In this document: positions 18,620-31,551 of the stretch, in pieces
How the letters are laid out: each line of letters opens with the position of its first letter
Position numbering within the stretch: the stretch's first letter is position 1
IMG/VR virus record: IMGVR_UViG_3300042541_000378
Span: 1 to 31,551 of that record
Reading direction: 5' to 3' (one strand)
Length of the DNA stretch: 31,551 nucleotides
Source of the DNA: a virus
Notes under the pieces: generated by a model
What the model was told of the DNA's origin: nothing
The model's database searches: none
Seen by the model: the letters and a program-made list of their open reading frames with translations, nothing else
Translations under genes and position numbers: made by a program

Positions 18620-18967
18620 TTAAAATGGTAAATCGTCACCAACTTCGTCTGCAATAGACATCTTCTCACTCGTTGACTTCATTTCATGTTTAGCCATAGC
18701 ATCAATTTTCCATACAACAATCGTGTTAAACCACTTAACCTCACCTTGTGGATTTGTCCAACTTCTTCCACGCAAGTTAAAATGCGCTTCGATTTCTTGA
18801 CCTACTTCGATTGAATCAATAAGACTGCATTTATCCTGTTGTAATTCAACCTCAATTTCTTGTGGATAATCTCCAGCTTCTAAAATCACGAATGTTCTTT
18901 TACTGAACTTTTCTGTCACTTTAACCGTATCTTTTTTAACGATTACTTTTCCTTTAATTGTACTCAT
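18620..18967 (-). CDS. single-stranded DNA-binding protein (DUF3127 family) with SSB-type tail
   Basis: The 115-aa product has a five-strand OB-fold-like body, with KRTFVILEAGDYPQEIEVEL, NLRGRSWTNPQGEVKWFNTI and VVWKID. This matches the DUF3127 family common in Bacteroidetes. The C-terminus is disordered and ends in DDLPF, very close to the DDDIPF tip by which bacterial SSBs recruit partners. It sits next to the exonuclease gene and in the replication region. Coating single-stranded DNA during replication and recombination is therefore likely. The call combines family memory with the visible tail. Confidence 0.8.
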   Translation of the reverse strand: MSTIKGKVIVKKDTVKVTEKFSKRTFVILEAGDYPQEIEVELQQDKCSLIDSIEVGQEIEAHFNLRGRSWTNPQGEVKWFNTIVVWKIDAMAKHEMKSTSEKMSIADEVGDDLPF

Positions 18968-18979
18968 TTTTACTTTGTT

Positions 18980-19180
18980 TTAAATTGTTTTTTCATTATA
19001 CTGTTTAAGCCAATCCTTAAACTTGATTGGATTCATTTCACTTCCATATCGAAGGATTGTAAAAAAAGCATATTGTTCTGCTAAATTTTCTTCTATTTCT
19101 TTGGCTTGGTTAATAACTGAACTATGCAAAATTCCATTTTCTGCTAATGTTTCTACTAAAAAATCTACTGCTGTTTTCAT
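18980..19180 (-). CDS. small early protein, MKTAV-type paralogue 1
   Basis: The 66-aa product MKTAVDFLVETLAENGIL... is helical and related to the gene product at 18093-18311 by the shared MKTAV(D/E)F start and AKEIE core. Its ATG overlaps the exonuclease stop (ATGA), so translation is probably coupled. Function unknown. Confidence 0.75.
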   Translation of the reverse strand: MKTAVDFLVETLAENGILHSSVINQAKEIEENLAEQYAFFTILRYGSEMNPIKFKDWLKQYNEKTI

Positions 19181-19833
19181 ATATACATTTCATTTAATTT
19201 CAACAAAGCCATATTCAACTCGTGATTCAACTTCTCCGCTTCTTCACGTGCAATTCCAACCCACTCCTCAACTGTTTTAATATTAGGCTTGGCTTTCGTG
19301 CCTAAGTCAATTTTAGAATCCTTTGTCAATGCTTTATACCACAATGATTTTTCCTTTGATTCAGGTCGGTAAGATACAAAATACATCGTTTCTAACTTTG
19401 GATTAACTGTGAAATAATGCAAAACTTGGTGAATATTATCGCTTGGAATCTCATTTGCTAATAAAGTCTCTGTATGCTTTTTTGCTCTTGGACATTTAAT
19501 TTCTAACATTATCGTATCATCTTCTGATATACCATCCGGAGATAATCCAAGAATAGGAATAGCAGCGTTCTGAATAAATCCAATCTCTTTGAATGATATG
19601 AATAGTTCATCTGATATTGCTTCTCTCGCATACGGCTCTAATTCAGTACCTCTAACCATATCAGCAGAACTATATGAATCTTCTAATTCCCAATCTTCGA
19701 TGTGTTGTGAAATTAAATCTATGAGTAAAGTATCAGACTTGATAAACAATCCTTTACTTGCAGTTCCAGTTATTTTGCCATGACGCAATTCTAACCAATC
19801 CGCAGTACCTTGTATTATATCGTGTTTAATCAT
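19177..19833 (-). CDS. YqaJ/lambda-type 5'-3' exonuclease
   Basis: The 218-aa product shows the YqaJ nuclease motifs in order: QGTADWLELRHGKITGTAS (residues 8-26), RGTELEPYA with E66, GLSPDG with D100, MLEIKCP with E111 and K113, and NIHQVLHYF with Q136. This is the PD-(D/E)XK core used by phage recombination exonucleases to resect double-strand ends. An annealing protein normally accompanies it. The gene just upstream at 19830-20342 overlaps it by 4 bp and is the best candidate partner, though it is not a recognised RecT. The SSB gene lies one gene downstream. Confidence 0.88.
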   Translation of the reverse strand: MIKHDIIQGTADWLELRHGKITGTASKGLFIKSDTLLIDLISQHIEDWELEDSYSSADMVRGTELEPYAREAISDELFISFKEIGFIQNAAIPILGLSPDGISEDDTIMLEIKCPRAKKHTETLLANEIPSDNIHQVLHYFTVNPKLETMYFVSYRPESKEKSLWYKALTKDSKIDLGTKAKPNIKTVEEWVGIAREEAEKLNHELNMALLKLNEMYI

Positions 19834-20342
19834 AACTGTGCTATTTGTTCTTCCGTTAATATATAATCGTTAATCAATTTATCCTTATCAAATTTACCGC
19901 TTTTAATAGCTTCTAATGCCTTTGTAAATCTTTCTTGGTTAATTGGTTGCTTTTGTTTAATAAGTTGGGTGCTGCGTACCCTAATGCCTCCAACAACTTT
20001 CCCCATCATCTTTATGGACGAATCAAAAGATAACTCTATTTGTATACCAATCCAATTTCCTATATTACGTGCGCTTGCCGAATCTAAAGATTTTTGAATC
20101 TTAACAATATCTGTTATTGTCTTTCGATTAATAGAGTTTATTACCATTGATTTTACATCCTCTTCAAAGTCTATAAAATATGCATCTGTTTTATTACCGC
20201 TTACATCTATACCTCTAGCGTAATAAGCATCTTTAATTGTAAGTATACACTTACCCATTTCGGCTACAATCGTTTCAACATCTATTCCTGCTAAATGAGT
20301 TGATTTACGATACTTTTGACAATCTACATTGTGTTCTTTCAT
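19830..20342 (-). CDS. conserved protein linked to the exonuclease
   Basis: The 170-aa product has YRKSTHLAGIDVETIVAEMG and GKCILTIKDAYYARGIDVSGNKTDAYFIDFEE, then NRKTITDIVKI and IELSFDSSIKMMGKVVGGIRV. I recall this family beside YqaJ-type exonucleases in Bacteroidetes phages, without a proven function. The beta-rich middle could be an OB or ssDNA-binding-like fold. It is the first gene after a promoter with a structured leader RNA, and it overlaps the exonuclease gene by ATGA. It may act in recombination as the missing annealing partner, which is an inference. Confidence 0.75.
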   Translation of the reverse strand: MKEHNVDCQKYRKSTHLAGIDVETIVAEMGKCILTIKDAYYARGIDVSGNKTDAYFIDFEEDVKSMVINSINRKTITDIVKIQKSLDSASARNIGNWIGIQIELSFDSSIKMMGKVVGGIRVRSTQLIKQKQPINQERFTKALEAIKSGKFDKDKLINDYILTEEQIAQL

Positions 20343-20363: not shown

Positions 20364-20447
20364 GCAATCACATAAACGAGTGGCCGGAAATTAACTCGTT
20401 TATGCTGATTGCTTATTTAATTTATATCTTTTGGGAGTTTCCGGCTC
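20364..20447 (-). promoter_or_regulatory. kissing-loop leader RNA B
   Basis: In the minus-strand RNA a small hairpin, GAG-CCGGAAA-CUC (20447-20435), is followed 22 nt later by a long hairpin (20412-20364) with a 10-bp inner stem and a 6-8-bp outer stem. The 12-nt loop of the long hairpin contains UUUCCGG (20390-20384), fully complementary to the 7-nt loop of the small hairpin. The element begins 11 nt after the -7 box and ends 21 nt before the ATG, nearly the same as leader A. Confidence 0.75.
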
Positions 20448-20458
20448 TTATTGATACG

Positions 20459-20488
20459 CAAATATAATATTTTTTATTTATTCTACAA
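20459..20488 (-). promoter_or_regulatory. promoter upstream of leader B
   Basis: The -7 box TATATTTG is at 20466-20459, with TTG at 20488-20486 about 19 nt upstream, which fits the Bacteroidetes promoter layout. It overlaps the 3' end of the HNH endonuclease gene and would drive the exonuclease-SSB genes independently of the genes upstream. Confidence 0.7.
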
Positions 20489-21148
20489 TAAAAATAATTG
20501 TTTTTCTATTATTTTATCACTTTTACTTATGTTATCGAACGCCCACAATGGTTGCAGGTTGGTATAGTGAAATAATTTTATTAGTTCTTCTTCGTTTTTA
20601 GCCGATGCACAAGGGATAATATGGTCTACGTGCCACTTTCCTTGGTTGCTCCAATTCATTCCTTTTGTGAATTGTTTTTCTAAATGCGCTTTAGCAGTTT
20701 TCAAATCACAACCTAGCATATCAATTGTATATTGTGACTTAAATAAACTTTTAGATTTAAATGCCTTTAATATTCTACTACTTAAATTACATCTTAATTT
20801 AAATAATGGTTGATTTTGTTTCCTATTTCTTCTATATTCATTAAATTTTTCTTTATTATTTTGATAGTATTTTCTACCTGATATTTTTTTACTTTCTCTT
20901 ATTTTTTCTTTATTGTTTTCATTGTATATTTTTCGTTTTTCTTTGTTTTTTTCTTTGTTTTTTTCTTGCCATAATTTATTTGAAATAACTTTTCTGGCTT
21001 TTATTTTATCTTTGTTTATTTCACTATATAATTTATTATATTTTTCTTTTTGTATTTTTATTTTGGCTTTGTTTTTTTCACGATATAATTTAAAATACTC
21101 AGCTTGTTTAGCTTTTTTTAAAATCAATTGTTCATCTTCTGTTTGCAT
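20483..21148 (-). CDS. HNH endonuclease (lysine-rich, free-standing)
   Basis: The 221-aa product has a long Lys/Asn/Glu-rich N-terminus with repeated NKEKI/NNKEK units (residues 23-105). A C-terminal HNH domain follows: HLEKQFTKGMNWSNQGKWHV then DHIIPCASAKNEEELIKLFH, NLQPLWAFDN. The HNH half is clearly related to the enzyme at 21421-22371. It probably cuts DNA as a selfish or homing-type nuclease. The gene is even more AT-rich than its neighbours, with a very biased Lys content, which suggests separate acquisition. A structured leader precedes it. Confidence 0.85.
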   Translation of the reverse strand: MQTEDEQLILKKAKQAEYFKLYREKNKAKIKIQKEKYNKLYSEINKDKIKARKVISNKLWQEKNKEKNKEKRKIYNENNKEKIRESKKISGRKYYQNNKEKFNEYRRNRKQNQPLFKLRCNLSSRILKAFKSKSLFKSQYTIDMLGCDLKTAKAHLEKQFTKGMNWSNQGKWHVDHIIPCASAKNEEELIKLFHYTNLQPLWAFDNISKSDKIIEKQLFLL

Positions 21149-22822: not shown

Positions 22823-23857
22823 TTAAAATGGTACAACTTCTATAATCGAATCTCGGTTAAACAAATCCTCCTTATCAAAATTCTCGTTTACTTTTATTGC
22901 ACTTTCAACATTCATTTCTTTGTGTTTAATGTTTAAATCTCCACGATTCGAGTAAATTTCACCTCCAGTAATCGATTTCACATAGTACCGATACGAGCGT
23001 AAATTTAAGAAAAATTTATAAACGCCATTCTTACTTGTTCCTTTTGGTTTTGTTTTAGCTATTCTAACGTGCAATTCGTTATCAGTTGCGTATTCGCTAT
23101 TAAAAGTTAGAAAGTTTACGGGTGGCCTCCAAAAGATAAGCATTGACATTCCCTTACGAAACCAAACTTGTCCACCAGCAAAGTCTCTTGCAGTCGGCAT
23201 TGGATAGTAATAGTCGCCATCCTTTATCTTTTCAGCCTTTTGGTCTCTAACGTGTGTAATTACGCAATGGTGGCGATTGGTTAACTTTGCATTTTTACGC
23301 ACCATTCCTAAAACTCGGCTTAAATATCTATCTTCCCTGCCTAAATCAACCGGTAAATAATCTTCCTTTAATTCATTCCAAGGGTCAACAGTTGTAGTTT
23401 GAATGCTCACGTTATTATCCTTTTCAAACTTATCTACCATTTTGTAAAAGTCATCAATTGTAATATCTGCTTGGTCATCTACTATGAAAAAATGCTTTTC
23501 AACAAACGTTTCAGCTAACAATTTCTCTGATTCACTCATCATATTTGTGTTTTTTACGTATGGTTTTCCTACGAATTTGTGCATTATTTCGGAATAAACA
23601 TCGATATGCGAACCAGTTTCAGGAGAATAGATTACGTGCTTCCATCCATGTAGGCAAGATAAGTTAATTAGCATTTCAAACCAAAACTCACTCTTACCTG
23701 AAGCCGGCGCACCTGCCAAATATGTTGTGCTTCCAAGTCTAATCGTGTACGGAAAAGCATCCCATTGCCAACCAACGCTCTTACCCATCTCAATTCCATC
23801 GGTGTAAAGGTTGTTTAGTTCTTGCGATACATCTGATAGTTTCTTAATCATGGTCAT
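22823..23857 (-). CDS. DnaB-type replicative helicase
   Basis: The 344-aa product is a single RecA-like ATPase domain with Walker A GAPASGKS (residues 49-56), SPETGS, and a Walker B-like TTTVDPWNELKEDY. ITHVRDQK with a sensor/His motif and KTKPKGTSKNGVYKFFLNL near the end follow. This matches the C-terminal domain of DnaB/gp41-type helicases without the N-terminal primase-interaction domain. It would unwind DNA at the phage fork. A second ATG at 23851 (MIKKLSDV) is equally possible. It overlaps the replication protein gene by 14 bp. Confidence 0.85.
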   Translation of the reverse strand: MTMIKKLSDVSQELNNLYTDGIEMGKSVGWQWDAFPYTIRLGSTTYLAGAPASGKSEFWFEMLINLSCLHGWKHVIYSPETGSHIDVYSEIMHKFVGKPYVKNTNMMSESEKLLAETFVEKHFFIVDDQADITIDDFYKMVDKFEKDNNVSIQTTTVDPWNELKEDYLPVDLGREDRYLSRVLGMVRKNAKLTNRHHCVITHVRDQKAEKIKDGDYYYPMPTARDFAGGQVWFRKGMSMLIFWRPPVNFLTFNSEYATDNELHVRIAKTKPKGTSKNGVYKFFLNLRSYRYYVKSITGGEIYSNRGDLNIKHKEMNVESAIKVNENFDKEDLFNRDSIIEVVPF

Positions 23858-24587
23858 GAATTGTGTATGTTCCTACTATGCCTTTTCTCTCGGTTGTTAA
23901 TTCCGTTCCGTGTAAATCCATTGTGTTAGGTCTTGAAAAATAACCTATGCTACAAAACTTAAAATTGTTATCACTATGGAATTTATCTTTCTTGCAATTT
24001 AACATTGCGGTATGGATATTTGATTTTGTGTAACCTTGCTTTAATAAAATTATATATTTTTCTTTAACTTTCTTATTTATAATTACACATTTTTTATTGT
24101 AAATTTTATTGTAAGTCTGTAATAAAATATCAAAATCAATCACCTCCCCTTTAGGGGTTGGGGGTTTTTTTTCCTCTTCTTGTTCTTGTTCTTCTTCTTG
24201 TTCTTCTTGCGATAAAGTATCCATAGAGTATATATACTGTATCAATAGAGTATTCTTTACATTGGAAAGTTCTGATTCTAAACAGCTTAATACCTTTGGA
24301 GATGTAGAACCGTTGTATCTGTCCCAATTTCGTATTGCTATCTCATTTGTACCCTCGGAATACATTATTTTATTCTTATCAATAAAGAAATTTAACATCT
24401 TATTTGCCTTATCTAAATTAATATCTAAATCATAACAAACTTGTTTTTTTGAAATTTCATAAATTCCACATTGCTTTGTTTTTTCATTTGTAAGAAGATA
24501 TAAATAAAATAATTTTTGTTCCATTGTTAGTGATTCTATAAAGACATCCGACCAAAACGATGTGTGTATTTTTCTAAAAATAGCCAT
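23844..24587 (-). CDS. winged-helix replication protein (DnaD/replisome-organizer-like)
   Basis: The 247-aa product begins MAIFRKIHTSFWSDVFIESL, followed by a winged-helix-like region, EQKLFYLYLLTNEKTKQCGI and KKQVCYDLDINLDKANKMLN. This is the pattern of phage replisome organisers that load DnaB-type helicases. A Glu/Gln repeat and PPTPKGE then form a linker at about residues 126-146. A C-terminal DnaD-like domain with ILLKQGYTKSNIHTAMLNC follows. The helicase gene overlaps its end. It probably binds the origin and recruits the helicase. Confidence 0.8.
   Translation of the reverse strand: MAIFRKIHTSFWSDVFIESLTMEQKLFYLYLLTNEKTKQCGIYEISKKQVCYDLDINLDKANKMLNFFIDKNKIMYSEGTNEIAIRNWDRYNGSTSPKVLSCLESELSNVKNTLLIQYIYSMDTLSQEEQEEEQEQEEEKKPPTPKGEVIDFDILLQTYNKIYNKKCVIINKKVKEKYIILLKQGYTKSNIHTAMLNCKKDKFHSDNNFKFCSIGYFSRPNTMDLHGTELTTERKGIVGTYTIHDHD
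24143..24210 (-). repeat. in-frame GC palindrome and GAA/CAA triplet run
   Basis: The plus strand has CCCCTTTAGGGG at 24146-24157, flanked by CCT and TTGGGGG, inside otherwise AT-rich coding DNA. Next to it (24171-24210) is an imperfect run of GAA/CAA/GAG codons. Together they encode the Glu/Gln-rich and PPTPKGE linker of the replication protein. Confidence 0.7.
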
Positions 24588-24588
24588 A

Positions 24589-25098
24589 TCAAAAACCTTT
24601 ATTTTTTAAATTATAATCAAACATCTGAGTAAATTCAACGCCTTCTACGCCATATTTATATGTAAATAATTCAACTTTAGTCTTGTGATGTTCTATTATA
24701 TCACAATCATTAATTTCATTATTAAAAATATCACCTAAAAAAACAAATGAACTATTCGTATCAGCGCCTTTGCCAATTAAAGTTATTTTATAATTAAATA
24801 AATCACCTAACTTTCTATCTTCTAAATACGTTTTAACACCTTGCAAATAATTTAACGCTTGAAAAAAAGTGCTAACACCAATTTTATCTTTTTTTAATTC
24901 GATAATATTAATGCATCCTTTATAAAATCTCTTGTTATGATAATAAGGTTTTTTAATCTCAATTAAATCCGCAATTCCATAATTACCAATCCTTAATTGT
25001 CTTTTTAGCTTTCCAGTTAAATAAAGCCCTCTCTCTTGTAGCTTATCCTTGTCGGATAAATAAATGATTTCTTCCAAATCCTTCTCTAAAAATTCCAT
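24589..25098 (-). CDS. PD-(D/E)XK nuclease-like protein
   Basis: The 169-aa product shows an order of acidic and basic residues typical of this nuclease fold: E9/E10 in an N-terminal helix, D44 in IGNYGIADLIEI, E67 and K69 in INIIELKKDKIG, and Q80 in FFQALNYLQGVKTYL. This resembles NucS-like or NERD-like nuclease cores. It is the first gene after the promoter with kissing-loop leader A and lies one base before the replication protein gene. It could process phage DNA or degrade host DNA. The exact subfamily is uncertain. Confidence 0.7.
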   Translation of the reverse strand: MEFLEKDLEEIIYLSDKDKLQERGLYLTGKLKRQLRIGNYGIADLIEIKKPYYHNKRFYKGCINIIELKKDKIGVSTFFQALNYLQGVKTYLEDRKLGDLFNYKITLIGKGADTNSSFVFLGDIFNNEINDCDIIEHHKTKVELFTYKYGVEGVEFTQMFDYNLKNKGF

Positions 25099-25120
25099 AA
25101 CTTTCCGTTATTTAGTTAAT

Positions 25121-25208
25121 GCAAAAACACCGTTAAGATAGCCACGGTCAAACGGCATTTCTTAACAGATGTTTTGCTTATTAATTTCTTTTTGTAATTG
25201 ACCGTTAC
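25121..25208 (-). promoter_or_regulatory. kissing-loop leader RNA A
   Basis: In the minus-strand RNA a small hairpin, GUAA-CGGUCAA-UUAC (25208-25194), is followed 16 nt later by a long imperfect hairpin (25177-25121). The long hairpin has a GCC/GGC top stem, a GUUAAGA/UCUUAAC middle stem and an outer stem starting GCAAAACA. Its 10-nt loop contains UUGACCG (25151-25145), fully complementary to the 7-nt loop CGGUCAA of the small hairpin. The element begins 11 nt after the -7 box and ends 22 nt before the ATG at 25098. Confidence 0.78.
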
Positions 25209-25219
25209 TTAAGATTATG

Positions 25220-25227
25220 CAAATATA
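25220..25227 (-). promoter_or_regulatory. promoter upstream of leader A
   Basis: The -7 box TATATTTG is in the same TTATATTTGC context as the boxes at 28276 and 20459. No clear -33 TTTG is seen in the AT-rich DNA upstream. It would drive the nuclease, replication protein and helicase genes. Confidence 0.65.
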
Positions 25228-31400: not shown

Positions 31401-31551
31401 TCAAAATGGTAAAGGATTTACTTTAGGTACAAAAATTATCATTTCTAAATCTTGCAACCATCCAAAACTTGGATTTTGATTCTGTTCGATTTCTTCAATT
31501 GAAATAATCCAATTATCGTTATCGTCTTGGATAGGATTAAAATAGCTATCC
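31401..31551 (-). CDS. small conserved late protein, 3' part and duplicated overlap
   Basis: This is the 3' part of the 82-aa gene whose start is at 225. Bases 31425-31551 are the redundant copy of 1-127. The part unique to this end is 31401-31424, which adds the C-terminal residues KVNPLPF and a TGA stop. The next gene starts 63 nt downstream at 31337. Confidence 0.8.
   Translation of the reverse strand, partial: DSYFNPIQDDNDNWIISIEEIEQNQNPSFGWLQDLEMIIFVPKVNPLPF
31425..31551. repeat. terminal direct repeat, copy 2 (circular overlap)
   Basis: Exact second copy of bases 1-127. If it is removed, the unique circle is 31,424 bp and the 82-aa gene that crosses the join is restored. Confidence 0.95.

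Follow-up and report, generated by a model that had tools for sequence, protein, structure and literature searches.

The kissing complex formed by the ColE1 RNAs, RNAI and RNAII, consists of two 7-nt loops paired over their full length, and its shape can be read by a protein, Rop. Terminator formation in corrinoid riboswitches is decided by a hairpin, P13, which a kissing loop stabilises (PMC10653944). The phage locus described here possesses two hairpins with mutually complementary loops, located between a putative promoter and the first gene of an operon.

The window, i.e. the whole stretch of DNA analysed, is the virus record IMGVR_UViG_3300042541_000378 (31,551 nt). A 127-nt exact direct repeat is present at its two ends (1-127 and 31425-31551), and the record is therefore probably a complete circular or terminally redundant genome. 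All the likely protein-coding genes of the window are on the minus strand. Two leaders, termed A and B, share the same layout and differ in their loop letters.

Leader B

On the minus strand, leader B is flanked by an endonuclease VII-like gene (20483-21148) and the gene of a 170-aa protein. From the proximal to the distal end, the leader and the genes behind it are as follows.

20488-20486, minus strand: TTG, 19 nt upstream of the -7 box (identified from the sequence)
20459-20466, minus strand: -7 box TATATTTG (identified from the sequence; start site not mapped)
20435-20447, minus strand: hairpin P1, GAG-[CCGGAAA]-CUC, at the predicted 5' end (GAG 20447-20445, loop CCGGAAA 20444-20438, CTC 20437-20435)
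20445-20438, minus strand: kissing strand x, GCCGGAAA
20434-20413, minus strand: 22-nt linker between P1 and P2
20364-20412, minus strand: hairpin P2, long, 18 bp, GCAATCA-GCATAAACGAGT-TAATTTCCGGCC-ACTCGTTTATGTGATTGC
20390-20383, minus strand: kissing strand y, UUUCCGGC, in the P2 apical loop
20390-20384, minus strand: UUUCCGG in the P2 loop
20343-20363, minus strand: 21-nt spacer from P2 to the start codon, GUAACUUUAAAAAAUAAAAGU
19830-20342, minus strand: phrog_21613 product of 170 aa and unknown function, encoded by the first gene behind leader B
19177-19833, minus strand: YqaJ-like exonuclease, second gene behind leader B
18620-18967, minus strand: single-strand DNA binding protein, phrog_4932, DUF3127

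Together with the TTG, TATATTTG fits TTG-N19-TAnnTTTG, which we take to be the Bacteroidota promoter consensus. The -7 box is separated from P1 by 11 nt, the ATG stands at 20342, and the loop-loop match extends to 8 bp when the G of the GAG stem is included. This geometry agrees to the base with that of the original prediction. The latter had placed the leader before exonuclease and SSB genes: the operon does hold both, but its first gene encodes the phrog_21613 protein and the two others come after it. When the plus strand of the region is folded, its energy is 4.4 standard deviations below that of dinucleotide shuffles. No U-run follows P2, the sequence there being GUAACUUU, and the U-run is also missing in close homologs of leader B. 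Leader B hence lacks the feature expected of an intrinsic-terminator attenuator, a hairpin plus U-run between the promoter and the first gene.

Leader A

Leader A precedes a replication operon.

25220-25227, minus strand: -7 box TATATTTG
25194-25208, minus strand: P1, GUAA-[CGGUCAA]-UUAC
25121-25177, minus strand: P2, terminator-like long hairpin
25151-25145, minus strand: kissing strand y, UUGACCG
24589-25098, minus strand: 'A protein' of 169 aa with a predicted PD-(D/E)XK-like fold; its gene opens the replication operon behind leader A
23844-24587, minus strand: replisome organizer / DnaD-like helicase loader, second gene behind leader A
22823-23857, minus strand: replicative helicase-like ATPase, phrog_5482, with DNA primase/helicase profiles

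Here too, 11 nt separate the -7 box from P1. The P2 inner stem, CUGUUAAG/CUUAACGG, is followed by UGUUUUUG, and 22 nt lead from P2 to the ATG at 25098. Leader A does display a hairpin with a U-rich run in the position expected of such an attenuator.

The A protein displays a D44...E67-x-K69 pattern that is invariant in 20 homologs. Its predicted fold (pLDDT 87) has EndoMS/NucS as best PDB match, a weak one (Foldseek E 0.013) that provides no more than a hint; the protein is probably a PD-(D/E)XK nuclease opening the replication operon. At the start of its gene (25097-25113, minus strand), a tiny hairpin with GGAAA has a 3' strand running into the AUG. Many relatives harbor AUAAC-GGAAU-GUUAU(G) or AUAC-GGAAU-GUAU(G) at the same place. 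The stem appears to covary, and this hairpin might serve as an additional control element or as a site for the ribosome.

Comparison with shuffled sequences

A generic detector was used that retrieves pairs of hairpins in which at least 7 nt are matched between the loop of a stable hairpin and that of a small one upstream. In its loose form, this two-hairpin layout yields about 7 hits per dinucleotide-shuffled genome, and the bare layout alone is thus not rare. An accidental loop match between two hairpins in AT-rich DNA could draw on this frequency, but the stability of A and B is reached by a single hit in 40 shuffled genomes, and by none having a -7 box in front. The real genome exhibits two such stable hits, A and B, both with a -7 box about 22 nt before the loop. 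When the leaders alone are shuffled, the layout arises in 16 (B) and 59 (A) of 20,000 sequences, never at the observed stability. The original prediction, which held chance to be unlikely and named a high rate among shuffled controls as a refutation, is borne out by these numbers. With the matched homologs, the loop-blind scans and the covariation reported below, chance can be practically dismissed: the compensatory changes in homologs rule it out.

Homologs of the B and A genes

Some relatives of the B gene carry the same leader as leader B. In six loci (L005, L007, L010, L014, L039, L062), a variant with GGTCGGAA/TTCCGACC replaces GCCGGAAA/TTTCCGGC, which amounts to one compensatory change from C-G to U-A, and the leader of another relative, L006, has ACGACCAA/TTGGTCGT. 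In L005, a 148-aa reading frame (2530-2976) is found between leader B (at about 2425) and the B gene, and a start region, AAAAAAATAAAAGTATGAAC, stands in front of both. The window has, instead of an insertion of this type, the endonuclease-like gene (20483-21148) just upstream of its leader. The start of the leader B operon looks like an insertion hot spot.

An alignment-based scan of IMG/VR for relatives of the A gene returned 57 loci. In most of these loci the element stands immediately upstream of the gene, and every leader has matched loops of its own, for instance GTGAGAG/CTCTCAC, GTCGCAT/ATGCGAC, GTCGGAT/ATCCGAC, GTAGACG/CGTCTAC, GTAGCCG/CGGCTAC, GTAGGAG/CTCCTAC or GTGGTAG/CTACCAC. Two of them, L070 and L072, have an identical loop pair with the strands swapped. 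The genes behind family leaders encode the A protein followed by the replisome organizer, replication initiators, primosomal proteins and DnaD-like helicase loaders, as well as small unknown proteins and a few homing-type nucleases (the nucleases were named by eye).

With a -7 box required, the detector gives 24 hits in 663 kb and 2 in three shuffles of the same DNA. Among 18 near-full-length contigs scanned, most have one credible leader, and the window, with two, is unusual; the background being about 4 chance hits per pass, only hits accompanied by a U-run and the start of a gene were counted as credible. Candidates are present in cultured phages, namely Cellulophaga phage Nekkels_1, Bacteroides phage BF1-TP2 and, more weakly, Flavobacterium phage 11b. 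In Nekkels_1, a 9-bp loop match, CTACCTTAC/GTAAGGTAG, and a terminator of textbook form are located some 100 nt ahead of the portal gene (L064, 13582), and a GTCTAAC/GTTAGAC candidate precedes the A gene homolog (L115). The candidate of phage 11b, CGGGCAGG/CCTGCCCG (L067, 33621), is a weak covariance-model match (E 0.44). A leader in L090 (5229) has a 13-bp perfect match, TTGTCGAAACGTA/TACGTTTCGACAA, beyond the length expected of a kissing loop, and is possibly a different kind of attenuator.

No relative of the A protein was retrieved from a scan of GTDB species genomes, and in cellular genomes the group 2 P1 pattern (see below) has 14 exact matches, all without a -7 box and without a loop match. 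Judged from a single protein and a single exact pattern, the element therefore seems to be carried by phages.

Selection on the loop-loop contact

In 59 leaders of the A gene family, a blind rule that takes no account of complementarity was used to locate the terminator-like hairpin, defined as a stem with a U-rich run. The hairpin and U-rich run were found in 51 of them, leader A included. Among 35 non-redundant leaders, 29 display a Watson-Crick run of at least 7 between the hairpin centre and the 5' segment; permuting the partners gives 2.4 matches on average and 10 at most in 20,000 permutations.

Whole collections were also scanned with patterns in which the P1 stem and the linker were fixed and the loop left as N. 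With the group 1 pattern, GGAATN7ATTCCNAAGTT, 10 promoter-bearing sites were obtained: one is unrelated, one is cut by a contig end, and the other eight all match at 7 of 7 positions, with four loop sequences. The group 2 pattern, AGTTCN10TATAGAACTTAAA, gave 13 such sites, 12 of which match at 8 of 8 positions and one includes a G.U pair, with nine loop sequences. Pattern sites without a -7 box, taken as negative control, mostly have 3-5 matched bases, 4 of 74 in group 1 reaching 7. In these loop-blind scans, matched loops recur before unrelated genes.

Thirteen leaders of the group 2 type, drawn from both the A-gene and the pattern-scan routes, were aligned with MAFFT. Unguided RNAalifold analysis of this alignment yields the loop-loop helix as the only consensus helix. 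It exhibits changes on both sides at 6 of its 8 pairs (20 cells, which count sequences and not independent events), and 99% of cells are paired. Its covariation score is reached by none of 500 shuffles, and sliding the partner strand lowers pairing to 23-50%. The swapped and re-coded loops suggest that there were several independent events. A kissing-loop RNA may be defined by complementary hairpin loops kept by compensatory change, and the family conforms to this definition. The comparative evidence thus shows that the shape, and not the letters, of a predicted intramolecular kissing complex is selected.

Selection on the contact, as originally proposed from leaders A and B alone, is supported by the pairing, the double-sided changes, the shuffles and the permuted partners. 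Homologous leaders without the second hairpin would have refuted it. None of this kind emerged: the blind rule finds that hairpin in 51 of the 59 A-family leaders, and the more distant B homologs (L012-L017, Cellulophaga phages) lack the whole leader, not just half of it. A covariance model built from the group 2 alignment recovers the group 2 leaders and a few others, and neither the leaders of the window nor group 1, because the sequence outside the contact diverges; as built, it contains only the kissing helix.

Proposed mechanism and alternatives

In its common form, P2 has a basal stem such as ACCCC/GGGGU, followed by 5-8 U and mostly 8-30 nt to the start codon. The order of elements is promoter, hairpin at the predicted 5' end, linker, terminator-like hairpin and gene. 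The -7 box is mostly 12-20 nt from P1, the kiss spans about 7-8 bp (7-9 in nearly all), x is mostly 21-29 nt from P2, P2 is about 48 nt long, and the predicted terminated RNA has a median length of about 95 nt. By its sequence, the common-form P2 resembles an intrinsic terminator, placed after the promoter and ahead of the first gene in a replication operon or another early operon; termination itself is inferred. The original prediction had seen the loop contact; it missed the terminator-like character of the long hairpin, evident in most homologs and in leader A, and offered no function.

We consider it reasonably probable that the two leaders represent a single family of cis-acting RNAs which is found in Bacteroidota phages and works by attenuation. 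In the simplest reading, a likely one although it has no data on transcripts, termination or reporters behind it, the element would be a kissing-loop attenuator that lies next to the promoter and controls phage replication and early operons. P1, at the predicted 5' end, would offer about 7-8 bases to the P2 apical loop, and would be complete before that loop is made. As the P2 loop exits the RNA polymerase, the waiting P1 loop would dock, and docking would set whether P2 closes in time for termination after about 95 nt. By default, docking would stabilise P2 and keep read-through low, until the block is lifted by an unidentified factor, which might be a shape-reading protein, a change of the polymerase or an RNA acting in trans. 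The drifting loop letters argue against a ligand pocket in the loops, and for shape recognition or no external factor. P1 and P2 are mutually compatible, alternative antiterminator helices not having been searched systematically. Linker length shows no positive correlation with predicted complex length (Spearman -0.36), and its role as a ruler of a rigid, fully stacked complex is unsupported.

The same contact might act in the opposite sense, P1 grabbing the P2 loop and slowing P2 closure so that the polymerase passes, with termination only when P1 is blocked or absent. This main rival is possible, if rather improbable: P1 is upstream and complete before the P2 loop is made, a helix of 7-8 bp, at about -7 to -12 kcal/mol, could be strong enough to challenge a P2 stem that is imperfect, and the kissing loop of an activating corrinoid riboswitch stabilises an antiterminator (PMC10653944). 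However, P2 keeps in many leaders an apical stem framing the paired bases, which serves no purpose if pairing merely opens P2 and is required only when the kissing helix exists together with P2. With pairing limited to the loop, this framing stem implies that contact and terminator hairpin can coexist. On this ground, and by analogy with corrinoid riboswitches, docking as a stabiliser of P2 is inferred to be slightly favored over anti-termination. Leader B belongs to the family by its structure, and attenuation is unsupported for it: having no U-run after P2, it is not explained by attenuation as it stands. It may be a derived form acting on message 5'-end stability or on translation, or a decayed attenuator. 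If this held throughout the family, the two hairpins and their contact would be a structure at the 5' end serving to protect the message or to tune translation, and the U-run seen in most homologs would be secondary. Leader B, with P1 at the predicted 5' end and P2 without a U-run, fits this account, but a stabiliser would not be expected to have a hairpin and U-rich run right before the gene in 51 of 59 leaders, and the start codon of leader B, 21 nt past P2, is left uncovered; we regard it as unlikely.

The terminated leader of about 95 nt might itself act in trans through its loops as a small RNA, for instance in feedback or superinfection control as in plasmid antisense systems. The predicted short RNA would expose two complementary loops, and those of A and B differ and would not cross-pair. 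Intramolecular pairing should nevertheless win, the loop 8-mers occur in the window solely inside their own leaders, which removes trans targets within the phage as far as the window was searched, and opposite-strand promoters are not enriched. This last, coarse test (-7 boxes within 150 nt in 3 of 30 leaders, background 10.5%) also led to rejection of antisense control from the opposite strand. The trans-acting RNA is accordingly viewed as quite doubtful.

Beyond cis-acting attenuation, a broader proposal is made only tentatively, and is improbable in its entirety: many phages would share a hitherto undescribed RNA family whose self-contained kissing complex would switch the attenuator of the replication operon, fast-evolving loop codes would prevent cross-reaction between leaders of one genome or of co-infecting phages, and the terminated leader may act in trans. 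Bacteroidota phages are abundant in gut, soil and water, and the timing of their genes is little known. The element is a compact control device before replication genes, apparently without a metabolite-binding domain, with loop pairs re-coded many times. Its natural matched and swapped loop pairs constitute a test set for whether and how an intrinsic terminator is driven or blocked by kissing, and they also provide RNA circuits with natural orthogonal parts. The candidates in cultured phages make the idea testable.

Relation to known systems

Rfam 15 gave no match at gathering scores in the window and none at E<=1 in three further loci (L018, L091, L077); membership of a known RNA family, corrinoid and guanidine-II riboswitches included, was rejected for want of a covariance-model match. 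A literature search, mostly without subscription papers and preprints, turned up no account of a leader of this type. Precedents exist for kissing loops, for attenuators in leaders and for attenuators under the control of a kissing contact; there appears to be none for a terminator that kisses within its own RNA, has freely re-coded loops and is common to many phages.

The ColE1 RNAI-RNAII complex resembles the phage leaders in its 7-nt loops paired over their full length, but is intermolecular and belongs to plasmids. The guanidine-II riboswitch (mini-ykkC) is a bacterial leader with two hairpins and kissing loops (PMC9300104); its loops are short and conserved and it binds a ligand, whereas in the phages the loops vary from leader to leader, P2 is long and Rfam gives no match. 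The pT181-type antisense attenuators share attenuation in the leader of a replication gene and a kissing hairpin that can be re-coded into orthogonal pairs (PMC3753616); the phage leaders differ in showing no sign of an opposite-strand promoter and in having both partners in one RNA. The corrinoid (cobalamin) riboswitch L5-L13 contact is similar in that a hairpin controlling terminator or RBS formation is paired with the loop of another hairpin lying upstream of it (PMC10653944). Compared to this riboswitch, the phage leaders have no aptamer and no Rfam match, their contact of 7-8 bp varies freely instead of being short, and the kissed hairpin is itself terminator-like.
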